Positions 2,528 to 15,889 of a DNA stretch of 17,789 nt are shown piece by piece. The translations under genes were made by a program, and so were the position numbers. The number at the start of each line of letters is the position of its first letter. The stretch's first letter is position 1. Source of the stretch: Nitrospiria bacterium (GTDB taxonomy: Bacteria > Nitrospirota > Nitrospiria > Nitrospirales > UBA8639); assembly GCA_030430725.1 (NCBI GenBank), contig JAUIKP010000013.1:1-17789 (forward strand), written 5' to 3'. The notes below the pieces were generated by a model, which saw only the letters and a list, made by a program, of their open reading frames with translations, was not told where the DNA came from and ran no database searches.

Positions 2528-3055
2528 CTATTCATACGTTCCTCTAATGGGATAATCATTCTCCTGAATCCATTTCAACGTATCGATTAATTCCTCGGGG
2601 TCTGACCTGTTGAACGGCGTGTTGGACATATCGATCAACTGGACCTTGCCATCCGGATTCACGGCAAACATTGCAGGCTCGGGGAACGGTTGTTCCGTCT
2701 CCTCCTTGGAGCGGGGAAGGGAAATATACAGGCCGAGTTCCTTCATCTGTGCGATAGACAGCCCGTAGGCCACCGGGAAGGTTGCGCGGGTCTCTTCAAC
2801 CATCTTCTTGGCTTTGGGTTCCGGATCGCCTGAGACGGCCACCATCTCAGCGCCCACAGCCGGAAATTTTCCTTTCAAATCTTCGAGTTTTTTCAGGTAA
2901 GTTTTACATATGGGGCAATGCAGCCCCCGATAGATAAACACCACCTGCCAGTTCCCTTTCTTCTGTGGCTGTCCCAATGTGACCTCTCCTCCGTTGACCA
3001 GCGGAAGCGTGAATTCCGGTAGTCGGCTTCCCGACGAAAGCTTTGTTGGAGCCAT
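2528..3055 (-). CDS. Peroxiredoxin-like (AhpC/TSA, redoxin fold) protein
   Basis: A 175-residue thioredoxin-fold protein of the peroxiredoxin-like AhpC/TSA group. These are thiol enzymes that reduce peroxides or act as thiol-disulphide oxidoreductases in the cytoplasm. The strand [20 protein letters not shown] (residues 38-57) carries the active-site region with Cys47 and Cys50 as a CPIC pair. Classical peroxiredoxins have Thr-x-x-Cys here, so the CxxC form points to the atypical 'peroxiredoxin-like' family. A cis-Pro region follows near EPAMFAV. The ATG at 3053-3055 is chosen because AGGAGGTGAT lies 4-8 nt before it; an in-frame GTG three codons earlier is inside that ribosome binding site. 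No signal peptide. It stands alone, with a decayed DHH fragment right behind its stop. Confidence 0.85.
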
Positions 3056-3581
3056 GGGTATCACCTCCTCAAGATTGATTCATTTTTTGGTACAAACCGG
3101 TCCCATCCCAATGATCATGTGGATTGGGTATCTTAGGAATTTTTTAAAAGACCTGGTTGATCCCATCATAACAAGCCCGGGACGAGGAATAATCTCTCAT
3201 AGATGGATAAAAGTTCCTTTTTTGATGGCACTTCATCTAACAACATGAGAATATCCGGCTTCCAATCTGATTGGACCGAAAATTTAGGAACTTGAGAGCA
3301 GGCGTTCTAAAAATGGCTCATATTCAGGAAGGCGTCCTGACCTTGTTTAATCCATCCCCGAATTCCAGTTTTTCCTCTAGGGGTTTGTTGAAAAAAGCCG
3401 CCAGCGGCGTTCTCGCCATTTTTCCGTGCTCACGTACTCAGCGTACGCTCCGCGCGAAAAAAACGGCTGCGGCCTTGCTGGACCAACTTTTTTGAACCGA
3501 CCCGGAGCATTTGATGAGTATTCTAATCCTGGGCAAATTTGCCCCTGAAAATCTTTATTATTCAACACTCCCTCTAAGCGC
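3056..3581. other. Intergenic region between divergent peroxiredoxin and VTT genes
   Basis: It should hold the promoters of both flanking genes, but I find no clear -35/-10 pair. CCCAAT (3107-3112) pairs with ATTGGG (3123-3128) to make a small hairpin in the presumed leader of the peroxiredoxin gene. The most striking content is the palindromic repeat at 3387-3497, listed separately. The reading frames here have no ribosome binding sites and appear to be shadows. Confidence 0.5.
3387..3497. repeat. 111-bp palindromic intergenic repeat (REP/MITE-like)
   Basis: The element is bounded by 11-bp inverted ends, GTTGAAAAAAG (3387-3397) and CTTTTTTGAAC (3487-3497), with one mismatch. Nested inside are CCAGC/GCTGG arms, GC-rich blocks and a perfect 10-bp palindrome AGCGTACGCT near the middle. 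The whole can fold as one long imperfect hairpin. From memory, sequences of this pattern recur between genes in Nitrospira genomes; I could not check this. There is no transposase in the window, so it would be a non-autonomous element or a bidirectional terminator-like repeat. Confidence 0.7.
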
Positions 3582-4352
3582 GTGACAAACTTATTCCGGG
3601 TTAAAGCGGTAGCGTTGCTTGTCTTGCCGATAGCGGCGTATTTGGTCATGCAGAACGTCGACGTCGGTGAGGTATTCAATCCTGACCGGCTCACCCGATG
3701 GCTTTCCCAGGCCGGGCCATCCGCCCCTTTTCTCTTTATGGGATTGATGGCGGTCGCCGTGGTTATCAGCCCTATTCCGAGCCTGCCGCTGGACATTGCC
3801 GCGGGGGCCGCGTTCGGGCCGTTTCTTGGTGCCACCTATGCGGTACTGGGAGCGGAATTGGGAGCCATTGTCAGCTTTCTCATTGGACGCGCGGTGGGAC
3901 GGGAAGTGCTGACCAGACTCCTGCGTATGAACATCGCCTTTTGCGAGAAATGTTCAGACCACCACCTGGCGGTTTTTGTCTTTCTGTCCCGTTTACTGCC
4001 AATCTTTTCTTTCGACTTGATCAGTTATGGAGCCGGGCTCACCAACATGTCTCTTCGTATGTTTGCACTGGTCACCTTTCTGGGCATGATCCCTCCAACC
4101 CTCGCGCTTACCTATGCCGGAAGTTCTGTCACAGGAGGAACATGGCTCACTGTGGTTCTGGGACTTGCCATGGTCACGCTGCTCCTTCTCATTCCGAAAC
4201 TGGCTCTCCGATATCCCGACTCCCGCTTGGTGAAACTCCTGCGGGGAGAGGTCTCGGTCGGCAATCCCGGATCAACTCCCCTTCAACCGCCAACTAAGGA
4301 CTTTGCCGAAGGGGCACCACGGTGCGACTCATGCAACGGCCCGATGAAATAA
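3582..4352 (+). CDS. TVP38/TMEM64 family (VTT domain) membrane protein
   Basis: A 256-residue integral inner-membrane protein. Hydrophobic segments lie at about residues 9-24, 49-66, 72-104, 128-150, 160-182 and 188-207. Family marks include PIPSLPLDIAAGAAFGP (64-80), GAELGAIVSFLIGR (90-103) and SRLLPIFSFDLISYGAGL (136-153), the re-entrant-helix regions of VTT/DedA-like proteins. The superfamily is linked to lipid scrambling or transport, but the bacterial substrate is unknown. The start is a GTG with no visible Shine-Dalgarno; an in-frame stop at 3546-3548 limits the alternatives. An unusual cytosolic tail of about 45 residues ends in RCDSCNGPMK, a CxxC pair (Cys248, Cys251) that could bind metal. 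A second CxxC (CEKC, 121-124) lies in a loop between helices. Confidence 0.88.
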   Translation: MTNLFRVKAVALLVLPIAAYLVMQNVDVGEVFNPDRLTRWLSQAGPSAPFLFMGLMAVAVVISPIPSLPLDIAAGAAFGPFLGATYAVLGAELGAIVSFLIGRAVGREVLTRLLRMNIAFCEKCSDHHLAVFVFLSRLLPIFSFDLISYGAGLTNMSLRMFALVTFLGMIPPTLALTYAGSSVTGGTWLTVVLGLAMVTLLLLIPKLALRYPDSRLVKLLRGEVSVGNPGSTPLQPPTKDFAEGAPRCDSCNGPMK

Positions 4353-9426: not shown

Positions 9427-9737
9427 GATTCGCTTCGGATTTCAGTATATCGGCCTTAAACACGTCTATGCCATAGTGAGAACATGTGGCTCGGGTAGAT
9501 GTCCGGTGAAAGTTGAGGGATGAGAACTGCTGATTTGCATCTACTATGGCATATCCCGCTAATCTTTCCCGGCTTTTACAGACATCCGGATTTAATTTTC
9601 GATTCAAACCCTGTTGTCTAACCTTTCAATCACAGATACCCTCATATCAGATCAACAGGAATTACCAAAACTGCCCTTGACGGGACATCGCGAATCAGAC
9701 GGTACGGTGCCCATTCACCTACACGATGGAGGGATTT
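9427..9737. other. Gap between the MBL relic and the second lipoprotein
   Basis: It should contain the promoter of the plus-strand lipoprotein gene, but I see no convincing -35/-10 pair. An 85-codon minus frame (9607-9350) overlaps the relic and looks like a shadow. GGAGGG at 9728-9733 is the ribosome binding site of the next gene. Confidence 0.4.
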
Positions 9738-10172
9738 ATGCAAAAGATCGCAGCCATGCTACTGACATCGGCCTTAATCATCGGAGTCAGCGGATGCAGC
9801 TATGTTTTCTATCCGCGTGCGGATGAATTTGCCCAACAAGCGAAAGGGGCCACCAGCGTCGAAACCGTGCTGAATCTCACCGCCATGATGGAAGAAAGTG
9901 CGGAAGCCGCGATGGGCGGAACAGGGTACGATCAGCCCATGGACGACCTGCACAATCAATTTCATGCCTTCGACAATTCATTGTGTTGTGTGGACGAGGC
10001 CAAACGTGAAACACCGGCCTATGCGCTCGCGGTGACCCATAATAAGGAATTGTGGGCTATCTTTAAACGGCTATGGACGTTCAAGGATACGCAACCCCAA
10101 CGGGATGAACATCTTGCCTTATTTAAGACAGAGGTCCAAGAACTCCGTGCGACTCTTGAGGCATTGAAATAA
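9738..10172 (+). CDS. Lipoprotein of unknown function (144 aa)
   Basis: The start at 9738 is chosen over an in-frame ATG at 9726 because GGAGGG (9728-9733) directly precedes it. Residues 1-20 form a lipoprotein signal with lipobox VSGC and lipidated Cys20. The mature domain is helical, with a region rich in Ala, Glu and Met (NLTAMMEESAEAAMG, 44-58), a CC pair (LCCVDEA) and a C-terminal helix LFKTEVQELRATLEAL. I do not recognise the family. It is convergent with the SH3/anchor gene, 87 nt away. Its size and helical character resemble the lipoprotein at 8325-8657, but no sequence identity is obvious. The two may serve the cell envelope together with the neighbouring anchor protein. Confidence 0.75.
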   Translation: MQKIAAMLLTSALIIGVSGCSYVFYPRADEFAQQAKGATSVETVLNLTAMMEESAEAAMGGTGYDQPMDDLHNQFHAFDNSLCCVDEAKRETPAYALAVTHNKELWAIFKRLWTFKDTQPQRDEHLALFKTEVQELRATLEALK

Positions 10173-10259: not shown

Positions 10260-10949
10260 CTAATAGCGGGAGGAATAACTCGCGGTCTGTCGTGGCCGTG
10301 CCTTGAGAATGACTCCGATTAACAGGCCGATGAGTACCAGAGCGCCCCCATACAGTAGCCATTTGAGTTGTAAGTTTTCTTCAAGCTGCCTGGCTTTAGC
10401 GGATAACTCTTCAACTTGGCCAGCTAAAAGTGTATTCTGCTGAACCAGTTCGATGTTACGTGCATGCTCGTTGATGGAATCGCCCGATATACGTTTCAGT
10501 TCTGCGAGTTCTTTCGACAGGGATTGCACTTGCAAATTGAGTGTCCGGTTGTTGGCGTCGGTCTCTTTGTGCTCAGTTTCAATGCGCGCGCGCGCCTCCC
10601 GTTCTTTATCGATTTCAGCTTTAAGAGCTTGAAGGCGTTTCTCGGCTGCGGCCAGCTTGACACGGGCGATGGGTTCCCCGACGAGGTACTGAGATGTTAG
10701 CCAGCCTTCCATCCCATCGTTGGTCCGAACCTGGGTGAAACCGGCCTCCTCGTCTATCGCGAGAATGGTCAGTTGGGTCCCGCTTGGTAGGCCACGGTGT
10801 AGAATGCGATGGGCAGTCGTGGGCCCACTGCGTAGCGGCACCGTTACCACGTCCGAGATGTAATTCACGTCTCCGACGGCAGCCAATGGCTGTGTAGTCA
10901 ACCCCAACCAGAAGAACGATAAAAATACGAGATAGATTAAAAGTTTCAA
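10260..10949 (-). CDS. SH3 domain, coiled-coil and membrane-anchor protein (YgiM-like)
   Basis: The architecture matches the 'SH3 and anchor domain' family (TIGR04211, YgiM-like). A signal peptide ends TTQPLAA (about residue 24). Next is a bacterial SH3 domain, YISDVVTVPLRSGPTTAHRIL to GWLTSQYLVGE (about 30-92), a long coiled coil (about 97-195) and a C-terminal membrane helix WLLYGGALVLIGLLIGVIL (about 200-218) with a basic tail. The bulk would lie in the periplasm, perhaps contacting peptidoglycan. I choose the TTG at 10947-10949: it has a perfect AGGAGG 9 nt upstream and yields a textbook signal peptide (MKLLIYLVFLSFFWLG). An ATG at 10977-10979 adds ten residues but has no ribosome binding site. 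Confidence 0.8.
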   Translation of the reverse strand: MKLLIYLVFLSFFWLGLTTQPLAAVGDVNYISDVVTVPLRSGPTTAHRILHRGLPSGTQLTILAIDEEAGFTQVRTNDGMEGWLTSQYLVGEPIARVKLAAAEKRLQALKAEIDKEREARARIETEHKETDANNRTLNLQVQSLSKELAELKRISGDSINEHARNIELVQQNTLLAGQVEELSAKARQLEENLQLKWLLYGGALVLIGLLIGVILKARPRQTASYSSRY

Positions 10950-11626
10950 AGCGTTTAGCCTCCTCATGGTGTCGCGCATTTCGAGAAAGGAGTTCTTGGG
11001 GCGAAAGGTAAAGTGTCGTACTCACTGGGATAAGGAAACGTCCAGGCCCTGCAGGACAAGCCGATAAGTAGCAAAGGAACCGTAAGGTGTCAATGACACC
11101 AAAAAATCGGCTCATGAAAATGGAGGTTTAAAAAAGTTCACTCCTGCATTGCCTCACGAGTTTATCCCTTTTTCTGCCCACGAATATAGACGTCCCGAAA
11201 ATGTTCATGCCAACAACCTTAGAGAGGGTGGATGAGCTGCGCAGGATGAAAAGAAAGGCTCAAACACAGCCCGATATCCAAGTCAGGTGATCATTTGAAG
11301 ACGGCCTGTATATGAGCGACCGGAGCGGAGGTTTAAAGCAAGAGGCGGACCTTGGTTGAGCCAGGCGCGACGATCCGCCCCTTTACGGAATGCGTCAGAA
11401 CGATCCAATGTACTAACTTGAGTGGAAATGGCTTTGTGTCCTTTGGCCGAATCCACAGGCCTGTCCTGAACCAAACCGAAGGAGCCTCGGCTTCCGGGCC
11501 GGAACACGGTTCTCTCACAGCCAAAGCCAAATATACATCCATGGCCCAAAACATAAGCGTTAGGCGTAAGAAACCTTTTATGAAACAACGCCGATGGATA
11601 GGACCATTTTATTTTAAGTTTCTCTG
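10950..11626. other. Gene-poor region with stop-free stretch on both strands
   Basis: No confident gene over almost 680 nt. Between about 11283 and 11669 both strands stay open in several overlapping frames (73-128 codons), with no ribosome binding site and no domain I recognise. The strings DRSDAFRKGADRRAWLNQG (minus) and its shadows feel like a repeated or decayed sequence from this lineage, but I cannot show this. The left part includes the promoter zone of the SH3/anchor gene. Confidence 0.35.
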
Positions 11627-12223
11627 TCATTTCTTTTGAAGCACAGGGTACCCAAATGAATAAATCCATTTATCGGCATCCACCGCCTTTTTCGGTGCCA
11701 ACTCTCTAGCCGGAGTATGGCAGGGTATGCAGTCGGTTTTGTAATCCTTGGACACTGTGTGTTGAGAATCATCCGGGTTAAAGAGGGACCAACCCCAACC
11801 ATCACCCCAAAGACTGGATTGCTTAAACCTCCCCTTCGTATCCCTGACCAACACAAACCAGCCTTTAATCGTGGTCGCATGACCCACTGCCGGTCCGGTG
11901 GTCATCGGCATGGTATCGGCGTTTAGCAGTTCTTTCACCAACACCGCTCCGTCCGGAAACCGGTTTTTCTCGTTGTAATACTTAATCGTGTCCGGCTGGG
12001 TATACACGACGTGGTACTCCTGCAAACCTGGCGTACCTTCTGCCTTCGCGTGGGCCCACGTGCCAAGCGTGGGCCATTCCCGGTAATTTTCAGGAACACT
12101 GATGGCGCCGGTTTCCGGATGGACGTTTGAGGCAAAGGAATTAACATCCTGAGACTTGGCCCATCCAGCCAAACTTCCCAATCCCAGAATGAGCCCCGCC
12201 CCTATGATCACAACCTGTTTCAT
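11627..12223 (-). CDS. Cytochrome P460 family protein
   Basis: A 198-residue exported c-type cytochrome. Residues 1-23 are a signal peptide (IIGAGLILGLGSLAGWA). The P460 domain follows: VPENYREWPTLGTW (43-56), EYHVVYTQPDTIKYY (69-83), FPDGAVLVKEL (89-99) and GWGWSLFNPDD (142-152). The single haem site is CIPCH at 165-169, near the C-terminus as the family requires. Cytochromes P460 oxidise hydroxylamine and nitric oxide in ammonia oxidisers through a Lys-haem crosslink; many relatives, including cytochrome c'-beta types, lack it. Lys81 or Lys97 could play this role, but I cannot decide. AAGGAGA lies 6 nt before the ATG. It is the second gene after the YHS gene, 76 nt downstream, behind a hairpin, probably in one transcript under the divergent TetR regulator. 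Confidence 0.88.
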   Translation of the reverse strand: MKQVVIIGAGLILGLGSLAGWAKSQDVNSFASNVHPETGAISVPENYREWPTLGTWAHAKAEGTPGLQEYHVVYTQPDTIKYYNEKNRFPDGAVLVKELLNADTMPMTTGPAVGHATTIKGWFVLVRDTKGRFKQSSLWGDGWGWSLFNPDDSQHTVSKDYKTDCIPCHTPARELAPKKAVDADKWIYSFGYPVLQKK

Positions 12224-12252
12224 ATCGTTCTCCTTTACAAATATTTCCTGAG

Positions 12253-12292
12253 GGCGGAGGCCCCTCGTATAAGAACACGGTGGACCTCCGCC
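12253..12292 (-). promoter_or_regulatory. Intercistronic hairpin between YHS and cytochrome P460 genes
   Basis: GGCGGAGG (12253-12260) pairs perfectly with CCTCCGCC (12285-12292) around 24 nt, and inner bases can add more pairs. On the transcribed strand no T-run follows (CTCAGGAAATATT), so it is not a standard terminator. It more likely stabilises the upstream YHS message or attenuates the P460 gene. Confidence 0.6.
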
Positions 12293-12299
12293 TGGTTTC

Positions 12300-12761
12300 T
12301 TATAAATCCGATGGGGCCTTATCCTTGATCTCTTTCCAATTGGCCTCGGATTTTTTGAGATATCCCGGAATATCCTTGGACCATTTGTTTTGGATATCCC
12401 GATCCAAATTCAAATACAGTTTACCCTGAACGATTTTCCACGCTTCAGGGTCGGACACGAATTTTTTCCCGACCGCCACCCCATAGGCGCAATAACCCCC
12501 ATAAGCCGGAACGTACTTTGCGGGATCGTCCTCAAACGTGTTCTTATGCTCTTTGCTGGCAAAGACATAGGTTACTCCCATGTACTCGGCTACGTGATAA
12601 CCCGAGCCTTTCACTGGCTTCCCGTCGGTGAAGTAGGCCACAGGATCGTAACCGCTAATACCTGGCGTGCTGTGTGTGACATCACCGGCAAGAGCCGAGT
12701 TCGCCCCCATGAACAGAAATACCGCAAACAGGGAACTTAAGATTGTCCTCATCATTTTCAT
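12300..12761 (-). CDS. Secreted YHS-domain protein
   Basis: A 153-residue exported protein: signal peptide to ANSALA (residue 25), then one YHS domain. The domain marks are ISGYDPVAYFTDGKPVKGS (35-53), YVFASKEHKNTFEDDPAKYVPAYGGYCAYG (66-94) and the C-terminal helices DRDIQNKWSKDIPGYL (120-135). YHS domains bind or sense metals in several settings; in secreted stand-alone forms a metal- or haem-linked role is suspected, not proven. Cys91 in GGYCAYG is the typical lone cysteine. AAGGAG lies 9 nt before the chosen ATG, which gives MKMMRTIL. It is the promoter-proximal gene of the YHS-P460 pair, whose promoter region is shared with a divergent TetR gene. Confidence 0.88.
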   Translation of the reverse strand: MKMMRTILSSLFAVFLFMGANSALAGDVTHSTPGISGYDPVAYFTDGKPVKGSGYHVAEYMGVTYVFASKEHKNTFEDDPAKYVPAYGGYCAYGVAVGKKFVSDPEAWKIVQGKLYLNLDRDIQNKWSKDIPGYLKKSEANWKEIKDKAPSDL

Positions 12762-12805
12762 GATGGATCTCCTTTTTGAAGGTAGAAGGGTTGGTAAAGA
12801 TTAGT

Positions 12806-12819
12806 ATACAGATCTGTAT
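12806..12819. promoter_or_regulatory. Perfect 14-bp palindrome, candidate operator for YHS-P460
   Basis: ATACAGATCTGTAT is a perfect palindrome 45 nt before the YHS start. On the minus strand its end overlaps the hexamer TATACT (12808 to 12803), a good -10 candidate; no clear -35 is seen. A repressor bound here would block that promoter. It shares CAGAT/ATCTG half-sites with the palindrome at 12931-12945. Confidence 0.6.
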
Positions 12820-12930
12820 CCTTTATGGAGCCTAGTCAGCTGAATCCCTGTTTCGTTACACTTCTTTTCCAGTCGTTTTAACATGGCAGACACTAGTCAA
12901 GTCCTTGTTATACAAAGACAAATAATATGG

Positions 12931-12945
12931 ATATCTGTCAGATAT
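12931..12945. promoter_or_regulatory. 15-bp palindrome, candidate operator for the TetR gene
   Basis: ATATCTG-T-CAGATAT is a perfect inverted repeat with one central base, ending 44 nt before the TetR start codon. TATAAT at 12943-12948 overlaps its right arm and is a consensus -10; a -35 is not evident. The placement suits autoregulation by the TetR protein. Confidence 0.6.
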
Positions 12946-12988
12946 AATTGTGTTTCCATAAAAATTAAAAAAATTTTGGTAGACCTGA

Positions 12989-13591
12989 ATGTCTAGTAAA
13001 ATGAAGCAAAAAGGTGCGCGACCCTCAAAGCGGGAGCAACTCATCCAGACAGCTGTGAACTTATTTGGCCAATACGGGATTCATGCCACGGGGATCGATA
13101 CCATTGTGGAACACTCGGGGGTAACCAAAAAAACCTTGTATGCGCACTTCCGCTCAAAAGAGGAATTGGTGCTCACGGCCTTGCGGCACTATGACGGGCA
13201 ATTTAGAAATTCGTTTATGCGGCAAGTGGAGACCAAGGCGCGCAATCCAAAAACCCGCTTGCTGGCCATTTTCGATGTGGCCGAAACCTGGTTTTCACAA
13301 CAGAGTTTTTATGGATGCATGTTCATCAATGCCGTTGGTGAGCATTCCACCCCCGACACCTCACTTCGTTACGTCTGCAGGGATTTCAAACGGATGATGA
13401 CGGAGTTTATCCTCAAGCTATGCATTCAGATGGGAGCGCGAAATCCCCAACATTTAGCCGAAGAACTCGCGCTCTTATTGGAAGGCGCCATCGTGACCGC
13501 CCAAGTGTCTCAAAAACCTGACGCAGCCAAAATTGCGAAACGGGCAGCAGCAGTACTGATCGAAAAACAACGTTCACATGAAGCATTCTAG
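12989..13591 (+). CDS. TetR/AcrR-family transcriptional regulator
   Basis: A 200-residue TetR-family repressor. The N-terminal DNA-binding domain is clear: REQLIQTAVNLFGQYGIHATGIDTIVEHSGVTKKTLYAHFRSKEELV spans residues 15-61, with the helix-turn-helix in the second half (VTKKTLYAHF, 45-54). The C-terminal ligand/dimer domain contains FYGCMFINAVGEH, typical of TetR proteins of the YxaF/AcrR-like branch. The ligand is unknown. It is divergent from the YHS-P460 pair, sharing a 227-nt spacer with two palindromes, so it probably represses both itself and that pair. The start has no clear Shine-Dalgarno; a second ATG four codons on (13001) is possible and does not affect the domain. Confidence 0.9.
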   Translation: MSSKMKQKGARPSKREQLIQTAVNLFGQYGIHATGIDTIVEHSGVTKKTLYAHFRSKEELVLTALRHYDGQFRNSFMRQVETKARNPKTRLLAIFDVAETWFSQQSFYGCMFINAVGEHSTPDTSLRYVCRDFKRMMTEFILKLCIQMGARNPQHLAEELALLLEGAIVTAQVSQKPDAAKIAKRAAAVLIEKQRSHEAF

Positions 13592-14535: not shown

Positions 14536-14899
14536 GATGCCAATCCCCTTCTACACCCGATCAGCAGAAAAATGAAGGGTTTTTGTTTTAAATAAAAGAT
14601 TTGTATGGCTATGATCATTTCTCGCATTCAGTACCACCCCGCTGGACAATCGGGGCAGGCTTTTTTAACGGGTTTTTTTAGAATATCCAGTCTCACATTA
14701 AACTCCAAAGGGCATACACCCGGTAAAATTATATTTGCCAGAAGGTCTCCTTCTGGTTTACTTTGTAGGGTTTGAATATTTCCCTTTATCTAAGGAAAGT
14801 TGAGGATCTCCGTTTTACAAGAAAGCCTCGATGAAGTTTCTTAAATCGTAAGCTACAGATATCTCGGAATTCCCTACACATGAGAGAGGAGCGTTGAGG
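14536..14899. other. Upstream region of the desaturase gene with two hairpins
   Basis: Two stem-loops are visible. CCCCG (14637-14641) pairs with CGGGG (14651-14655) and is followed on the plus strand by a T-run at 14661-14666, terminator-like although no gene ends before it. CCAGAAGG (14738-14745) pairs perfectly with CCTTCTGG (14749-14756) around TCT. They may mark a small RNA or the desaturase leader. No promoter hexamers stand out. Confidence 0.4.
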
Positions 14900-15889
14900 A
14901 TGCCAGAAATCCAGCGGATCAGAGTGGGCCCATGGAAACTGTTAAAGTCCCTGTTTGACACCCAAGAAGCGACGGCACTGGCTTCCCATAAAAACGGTCG
15001 CGATATAGACCTGGTGCGAACGATCCCATTTCTGGCCTTACATATTGCCGTCCTCGCCGTCTTTTGGGTTGGATGGAGTCCGGTGGCAATCGCGGCCGCC
15101 GTTAGCTTGTATGTTATACGAATGTTCGCAATTACCGGCTTTTATCACCGGTATTTTTCACACCGAACGTTTCGAACCTCACGAGTGATGCAGTTCTTGT
15201 TTGCCTGCCTTGGGGCCAGCGCGGCCCAACGAGGTCCTTTATGGTGGGCCGCTAATCACCGCCACCATCATGCCTATTCAGACAAACCGGCAGATGTTCA
15301 TTCTCCTGTCATACGCGGCCTCTGGTGGAGCCATGTAGGTTGGTTTTTAACCCATGACCAACTGGCGACAAAGTTGAACCGCATCAGAGATTTTGCGCGA
15401 TATCCCGAATTACGATTTCTGAACCGTTTTGATACCCTTGTGCCAATCGGGCTGGCAGTCACCCTGTTTCTCTTGGGGAAATGGCTCGGCAGTGCCTATC
15501 CAAATCTGGGAACAAGTGGATGGCAAATGCTGGTATGGGGCTTCGTGGTTTCGACTGTTGTCCTCTGGCACGGCACTTTCACCATTAATTCGCTTTCCCA
15601 TGTTTTCGGTACCCGACGCTATCCAACATCCGACCATAGCCGGAACAACTTCCTTTTGGCCATCATCACCCTGGGTGAAGGATGGCATAACAATCATCAT
15701 CAATATTGCAGCTCCGCCCGGCAAGGGTTTCGGTGGTGGGAAATCGATATCACATATTATCTGCTGCAAGGACTCCAATTTTTCGGGATCATCTGGGATA
15801 TTCGTCCAGTCCCTACTTGGGTACTGAATCACCCAAGTCTTGATCAGGTGGCACAGGATACGGATTCAGCTGAGAAGATGGCGATGTAG
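14900..15889 (+). CDS. Membrane fatty-acid (delta-9-type) desaturase
   Basis: A 329-residue acyl-CoA or acyl-lipid desaturase, a di-iron membrane enzyme that introduces a cis double bond into saturated acyl chains using O2 and reduced ferredoxin or cytochrome b5. All three histidine boxes are intact: HRYFSH (83-88), HRHHH (120-124) and HNNHH (263-267, within GEGWHNNHHQY). Membrane segments lie near 43-59, 62-80, 96-110, 180-198 and 208-224. WWSHVGW (142-148) and RWWEIDITYY (278-287) are typical of the delta-9 branch. The ATG at 14900 is preferred over TTG at 14894 because AGAGGAG (14885-14891) is 8 nt before it. No cytochrome b5 fusion. The gene appears single; it would adjust membrane fluidity and requires oxygen. 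Confidence 0.93.
   Translation: MPEIQRIRVGPWKLLKSLFDTQEATALASHKNGRDIDLVRTIPFLALHIAVLAVFWVGWSPVAIAAAVSLYVIRMFAITGFYHRYFSHRTFRTSRVMQFLFACLGASAAQRGPLWWAANHRHHHAYSDKPADVHSPVIRGLWWSHVGWFLTHDQLATKLNRIRDFARYPELRFLNRFDTLVPIGLAVTLFLLGKWLGSAYPNLGTSGWQMLVWGFVVSTVVLWHGTFTINSLSHVFGTRRYPTSDHSRNNFLLAIITLGEGWHNNHHQYCSSARQGFRWWEIDITYYLLQGLQFFGIIWDIRPVPTWVLNHPSLDQVAQDTDSAEKMAM

Follow-up and report, generated by a model that had tools for sequence, protein, structure and literature searches.

What controls a tetR gene that faces genes for a YHS domain protein and a cytochrome P460-family protein, and what might these two proteins do for the cell? Both questions are raised by a divergon in a 17,789-nt stretch of DNA (the window), positions 1 to 17,789 of contig JAUIKP010000013.1 of a Nitrospiria bacterium (GenBank assembly GCA_030430725.1), for which a sequence-only reading had proposed that one repressor acts in both directions at two matched palindromes. 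Comparison across related genomes shows that the divergon and the operator enclosing the first palindrome (operator 1) form a real, conserved and specific repressor unit, with TetR binding and repression themselves predicted. As to its role, we give about an even chance to a two-key stress-response unit of nitrite-oxidising bacteria, in which TetR and an extracytoplasmic function (ECF) sigma factor would together control proteins that protect the periplasm upon an oxidant or electrophile signal; here the two-key control, the oxidant sensing, the signal and the chemistry are what we infer. The features concerned are listed below (our handles G, C and L denote genomes, contigs and loci; papers cited by PMC number are drawn on in excerpt).

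11627..12223, minus strand: P460, putatively secreted cytochrome P460-family protein, 198 aa (PF16694, 6e-24)
12300..12761, minus strand: YHS, YHS domain protein in its Cys form, NF041384 '(seleno)protein' family, putatively secreted (PF04945, 2.8e-11)
12804..12821, no strand: operator 1, GTATACAGATCTGTATCC, with consensus GTATAC[AC]GATCTGTATAC; encloses palindrome 1 (12806-12819)
12833..12860, minus strand: promoter-like element for YHS-P460, TGTAAC-N17-GACTA, 11 nt upstream of operator 1, putatively ECF-type
12931..12945, no strand: palindrome 2, ATATCTGTCAGATAT (ATATCTG-T-CAGATAT), genuine in sequence, not conserved
12979..12996, no strand: operator 2, a weak copy, GTAGACCTGAATGTCTAG, overlying the tetR start
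13001..13591, plus strand: TetR, putative repressor, 196 aa counted from the conserved start (alternative ATG at 12989; PF00440, 1.7e-15)

The gene identities given by the sequence-only reading are borne out by PF00440, by PF04945 and NF041384, and by PF16694, with the window YHS protein scoring 149.5 bits against the NF041384 model (cut-off 70) and the window TetR 56.9 bits for its TetR_N domain (cut-off 24). Judged by reading the sequence, both YHS and P460 begin with a hydrophobic, signal-like stretch.

A conserved operator at the YHS start

Thirty YHS loci were fetched, and the spacers of the 19 with a divergent TetR relative were aligned. The 18-nt operator 1 consensus is present in all 19, with 0-3 mismatches and 36-42 nt off the YHS ATG, which lends indirect support to the predicted TetR binding. 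Both palindromes exist and are perfect (palindrome 1 being ATACAGATCTGTAT), each exact sequence occurring at a single place in the window, but they are not the matched pair they had been taken for, their half-sites being mutually inverted (CAGAT..ATCTG versus ATCTG..CAGAT). Conservation across orthologous spacers, the check proposed with them, held for palindrome 1 (19/19) and failed for palindrome 2, which is intact only in the window (L001) and in one relative (L006), its best match in the other 17 spacers being equalled by at least 6.5% of shuffles. Palindrome 2 is thus ruled out as the second operator.

Operator 1 is also specific at genome scale. Searching 97 related genomes with up to two mismatches yielded 26 sites in 23 genomes, 23 of them at YHS starts and one at a P460 start, the remaining two being G055:C15 and G005:C204, while the reversed control pattern gave seven strand matches in the same search. 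At up to one mismatch, 235 genomes of the order contained 21 sites in 19 genomes, with two strand matches for the control. The G055 site, near an ORF (open reading frame) that by eye resembles carbonic anhydrase, is probably due to chance, since the 6 kb fetched around it hold no TetR or YHS relative.

A candidate second site over the tetR start

A weak operator copy that overlies the tetR start is a likelier second site than palindrome 2, on the evidence of aligned spacers. At its offset, half-site matches averaged 8.2/12, compared with 3.4 (standard deviation 0.8) across all offsets, in 18 spacers (L013 left out, L009 out of register). The copy is evident only in this position-specific test and is found poorly by a weight matrix, for which p<0.05 was reached in 4/19 Nitrospirales spacers, at some of them away from the tetR start. 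The conserved tetR start is 13001, where 15 of 18 rows have ATG or GTG, and the candidate start at 12989 falls within this second operator-like site; hence the proposed symmetry, with palindromes 44-45 nt from each start codon, does not hold. What survives of the idea of one repressor for both directions is a single TetR with a candidate site at each gene start, palindrome 2 no longer being one of them.

A putative ECF-type promoter beside operator 1

On the YHS strand, TGTAA[CT]-N17-GACTA occurs in 19/19 spacers (TGTAAC in 18), and its distance from operator 1 is 11 nt in 16 of the 18 rows measured and 12 and 9 nt in the other two. The -10-like hexamers reported earlier, TATACT and TATAAT, are there, but a sigma-70 scan gave no promoter in the spacer. 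The exact pattern TGTAACRAA-N14-GACTA was found once per genome, at YHS, in five of six genomes searched, and in G007 both YHS copies carry TACTA in place of GACTA. At one mismatch, 22 hits (the two G007 copies among them) compare with 18 control matches, so most of these hits are noise.

A related element, CGTAAC-N17-GACTA, recurs in 5/6 genomes upstream of an operon for a VTT-domain protein and an FAD (flavin adenine dinucleotide)-disulphide reductase (Pfam on L125 only); the sites lie at position 1501 of L123, L117, L125, L120 and L106, and an ECF gene is 4.5-5.1 kb away in four of the five. In L184, an ECF sigma gene is located upstream of an unlinked P460 gene that has a TGTAAC promoter. 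Of 56 homologues of this ECF, eight have a YHS gene no more than 5.5 kb away, where 0.14 would be expected, and four are within 6 kb of a CGTAAC site; Pfam confirmed the ECF identity of the query and of three of the eight YHS-near homologues.

Operator targets beyond the divergon and stress-gene neighbours

The combined promoter-operator pattern at up to three mismatches gave 24 matches in 19 of the 48 genomes of the family, against seven for the control; those in G038:C72 and G034:C106 and one in G010 look spurious. In two genomes the unit is split, its separated parts each carrying operator or operator-like DNA. In G031, operator-YHS stands 37 kb from TetR-operator-P460. G023 has TetR-promoter/weak operator-DUF5069-P460, where the weak operator departs from the combined pattern by three mismatches, and elsewhere an operator-YHS with DUF4383 and an old yellow enzyme behind it. 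In G031, too, an old yellow enzyme lies near YHS. G005 carries a second full promoter-operator, free of mismatches, upstream of a secreted ORF of no known function and a Dyp-type peroxidase; a redoxin lies on the opposite side, and a catalase is close by. Behind the G030:C70 match is an ORF that, judged by eye, looks like the one in G005; secreted ORFs alike by eye behind promoter-operator elements are at L175 2978-3904 and L132 3111-3716, and neither matches Pfam.

Stress-related neighbours are also seen at other Phe-type genes. In Candidatus Nitrotoga (L071 4001-5899) it lies beside MsrB and MsrA, and in Nitrospira moscoviensis (L068 4001-7018) near SelO and MsrA (both by Pfam); P460 genes of N. 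moscoviensis are reported as Tn7-like cargo (PMC8649781). The Msr, SelO and old yellow enzyme neighbours in some genomes, together with the operator before the Dyp-type peroxidase in one, favour an oxidant or electrophile response.

A Phe-type P460 subfamily

In the window P460 the haem motif is CIPCH, the cross-link position holds Lys97 and the distal carboxylate position holds Phe123; C165, C168 and H169 are invariant in 13 aligned P460 rows, and the PF16694 match and CxxCH motif of the window protein place it in the family. We aligned 44 distinct P460s (at least 55% identity, duplicates collapsed, length 120 residues or more, and the second P460-family gene of the window's own genome excluded) to fragments of solved P460s. 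The cross-link lysine is present in 44/44, from whose position the haem bond is predicted, and the position of the NeP460 Glu96 or McP460 Asp102 carboxylate is Phe in 44/44, while the residue at the capping position, covered in all rows but one, is Leu, Ile, Val, Ala or Ser. Lys and Phe are also present in the three distant members from proteobacteria (40-44% identity). Paralogues at the same loci, 25-29% identical to the window P460 where of the Glu/Asp type, retain Lys and Glu/Asp in eight of nine cases and have a Phe cap in 9/9.

A tree separates the Phe and Glu/Asp types, with long-branch warnings, and we therefore claim no direction of transfer. Adjacent P460 pairs with one member of each type occur in L182, L183, L184, L099 and L100 (window relatives and two alphaproteobacteria). 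The window's own genome has a second P460-family match above cut-off (G000:C404:4981-5373; L033) and a weak third (G000:C103:20481-20660; L034).

Hydroxylamine oxidation is described as needing a precisely placed carboxylate (PMC11928373, in excerpt). Because Phe replaces this residue in 44/44, hydroxylamine oxidation by the Phe type is unlikely, and the suggestion that the window P460 handles hydroxylamine is not supported; the protein may bind NO. P460 genes of nitrite oxidisers have been read as hydroxylamine-to-N2O chemistry, for example in the excerpts of PMC8649781 (N. moscoviensis) and PMC12213059 (Nitrobacter); as the Phe type is without the residue on which such chemistry depends, predictions of this sort may not hold for this subfamily, to which the genes in those two papers may or may not belong.

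These residues also bear on a nitrogen-oxide response, in which TetR would sense nitric oxide (NO) or another nitrogen-oxide signal and P460 would bind or scavenge NO or handle hydroxylamine. Proteins of the P460/c'-beta fold bind NO, those cytochromes c'-beta whose pockets are hydrophobic are proposed as NO binders (PMC11928373, as excerpted), and most finds of the Phe-type gene are in groups known as nitrite oxidisers. Yet the substitution just described, with the carboxylate kept in most same-locus paralogues, argues against its hydroxylamine branch, as does the statement in the same excerpt that nitrite oxidisers are unable to transform hydroxylamine, and none of the few annotated operator targets was recognisably NO-related. 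On balance we consider this explanation rather unlikely.

The TetR and YHS proteins

Cys106 (numbered from 13001) and Cys126 are invariant in 26/26 TetR rows, and in all 26 Cys106 shares a column with Cys106 of Escherichia coli NemR, a residue that responds to reactive chlorine according to the excerpt of PMC7464077. The TetR copies of G013, G026 and G031 were each flagged by the search for one stop codon within the matched stretch.

For the YHS protein, no convincing relative of solved structure was found by sequence (best E 0.12), and AlphaFold models were poor for both exported proteins (pLDDT, the predicted local distance difference test, 61 for P460 and 51 for YHS). YHS domains are linked to metal proteins, and Cys91 is invariant in the 26 aligned YHS rows, as would suit a role in metal (copper) homeostasis, with YHS binding or reducing periplasmic metal and TetR sensing metal or metal damage; however, the Pfam-annotated neighbours (a selected part of all neighbours) included no recognisable metal exporter or metallochaperone, and we hold such a role to be improbable.

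Spread across genomes

At E <= 1e-10, a YHS relative is present in 37 of the 97 related genomes. A close YHS (E <= 1e-60) is carried by 22 of the 48 family genomes, a TetR orthologue (best hit with at least 59% identity) by 23 and a Phe-type P460 (E <= 1e-40) by 21, with all three genes in 21, none in 25, TetR and YHS in G020 and TetR alone in G014. In this count, P460 is partial at contig ends in G003 and G038, a distant YHS (47%) in G028 is not included and several genomes are incomplete. Fisher tests on co-presence gave 8e-13 and 1e-12, related genomes being treated as independent.

Named genomes were scanned, not exhaustively, with two short peptide patterns and P460 alignment, which gave 46 loci; several of these are on contigs that also supplied G-genome loci, so that the two counts overlap. 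Most are labelled Nitrospira, Nitrospirales, Nitrospirota, Nitrospinaceae or Candidatus Nitrotoga, groups known for nitrite oxidation, as read from the labels alone and not organism by organism; outside these groups are Rhodopseudomonas, Bradyrhizobium and Methylotenera (40-44% identity) and a single Nitrosospira-labelled assembly, with two contigs. At 16 loci P460 is accompanied by both YHS (1.2 kb away at most) and TetR (2.5 kb at most), at six by YHS only, at one by TetR only and at 20 by neither; contig ends cut the other three. The YHS-P460 adjacency, whose rarity elsewhere would have told against the sequence-only reading, thus recurs (22/46), and each gene also occurs without the other nearby.

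All nine Nitrospinaceae spacers have an operator-like site that scores above shuffles (p<0.05) on the YHS side, and seven of the nine have one on the TetR side. The pattern TGTAAGG-N13-operator, drawn from seven loci, occurs at YHS in eight of the nine genomes, and the G242 and G243 matches were not used in drawing it. Given these operator-like sites, the unit and its predicted switch span a phylum boundary (Nitrospirota and Nitrospinota), as far as the labels of metagenome-assembled genomes hold.

Least probable in our view is housekeeping periplasmic electron transfer, with a real operator, constitutive expression tuned by TetR and incidental stress-gene neighbours, since YHS-P460 without TetR, at 6/46 named loci (five labelled Nitrospira), fits it but the patchy presence in the family, where 25/48 genomes lack all three genes, and the putatively ECF-type promoter do not.

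A possible two-key stress response

In the two-key stress response proposed above, a TetR dimer would repress its own gene and the YHS-P460 operon, and an ECF sigma factor would drive transcription from the TGTAAC-N17-GACTA promoter. Oxidants or electrophiles would hit Cys106, perhaps with Cys126, and release the repressor. The exported YHS and P460, the latter with a lysine cross-linked haem in a non-polar distal pocket, may then shield the periplasm by binding or reducing small reactive species and not by oxidising hydroxylamine. A peroxide-dependent step has been suggested for P460 cross-linking, and the function of P460s with non-polar pockets is called an unsolved question, both in the excerpt of PMC11928373.

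More tentatively, and with doubt outweighing confidence, nitrite oxidisers of Nitrospirota and Nitrospinota may share a TetR-plus-ECF defence unit whose effector is a distinct Phe-type P460 subfamily (also in Candidatus Nitrotoga, without TetR), its cross-linked haem destroying reactive oxygen, chlorine or nitrogen species, with a YHS partner, and not oxidising hydroxylamine.

Several observations weigh against the stress-response reading. Searches of Nitrospira proper for a TetR orthologue and for the operator gave nothing but the stray G055 site, and the five Nitrospira-labelled YHS-P460 pairs scanned were all without the promoter. The operator search of the window's own genome yields the divergon site alone, three mismatches giving only noise (reversed control, 2 and 2), and the peroxidase link comes from one clear genome (G005). 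P460 genes away from the unit in G005, G006, G007, G030 and G033 have no upstream operator at up to five mismatches, and in four of these five genomes they are the only copies of the Phe type found. Many ECF hits resemble a general ECF-zf-HC2-peroxiredoxin locus remote from YHS (by eye; Pfam on L203). The column of NemR Lys175 is Gln in L001, L012 and L102 and Val in L077, the four rows read, and a cysteine in the NemR column may be common in this TetR subfamily.

Our literature searches returned no paper pairing cytochrome P460 with YHS, or the YHS domain with nitrite-oxidizing, and for YHS domain, TetR and hydroxylamine no such unit was among the matches listed; within these searches, the TetR/YHS-P460 unit is not described. 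The excerpt of PMC9312934 lists YHS only as a selenoprotein family, and P460-family genes in some Nitrospira are already in print (PMC6478695, PMC6311188, in excerpt). With the promoter and operator there is a switch that can be tested directly in lineages of nitrite oxidisers, and a way into the role of P460s with non-polar pockets.

Neighbouring genes

A small lipoprotein-like ORF (window 9726-10172) and a TIGR04211 SH3 protein (10260-10979) recur near YHS in several relatives (by eye in L135, L138 and L139; SH3 also in L178), and a fatty acid desaturase (window 14894-15889) follows tetR in the window and in L178. Elsewhere in the window are an AhpC-like redoxin (2528-3064) and a DedA/UptA-like membrane protein (3582-4352), both below NCBIfam cut-offs. 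The genome, of 3.5 Mb in 551 contigs, also has a chlorite dismutase-family gene.

Comparison with known systems

Among P460s, the window type is closest in design to NsP460, the 'halfway house' of Nitrosomonas sp. AL212, which likewise combines CxxCH and a cross-link lysine with no distal carboxylate (PMC11928373, in excerpt), but it has Phe where NsP460 has Ala at the carboxylate position, and at the capping position the aliphatic or small residues given above where NsP460 has Phe. It differs from hydroxylamine-oxidising P460s in lacking the carboxylate of NeP460 Glu96 or McP460 Asp102, and from cytochromes c'-beta, which have no cross-link lysine, in having one throughout.

The NemR-NemA-GloA system of E. 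coli, which responds to electrophiles and hypochlorous acid (HOCl), resembles the divergon in its TetR-family regulator with the shared Cys106 column and in the old yellow enzymes near YHS in G023 and G031. However, the Lys175 partner is missing in the rows read, for which reason we do not class this TetR as NemR, and the predicted targets of the divergon are exported YHS and P460 proteins.

The YHS promoter matches the ECF16 (SigF/EcfF/BcrS) oxidant regulons, whose consensus is (T/C)GTAAC-N17-CGAA, in its -35 element and N17 spacing; as excerpted, ECF16 is HOCl-responsive in one organism (PMC8315932) and includes the H2O2-responsive relative EcfF (PMC3420878). Its -10 element is GACTA in 19/19 spacers and not CGAA, which also counts against the stress-response reading, and we therefore claim the promoter as ECF16-like only. 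A further difference from ECF16 regulons is the addition, at the YHS promoter, of a predicted TetR operator.

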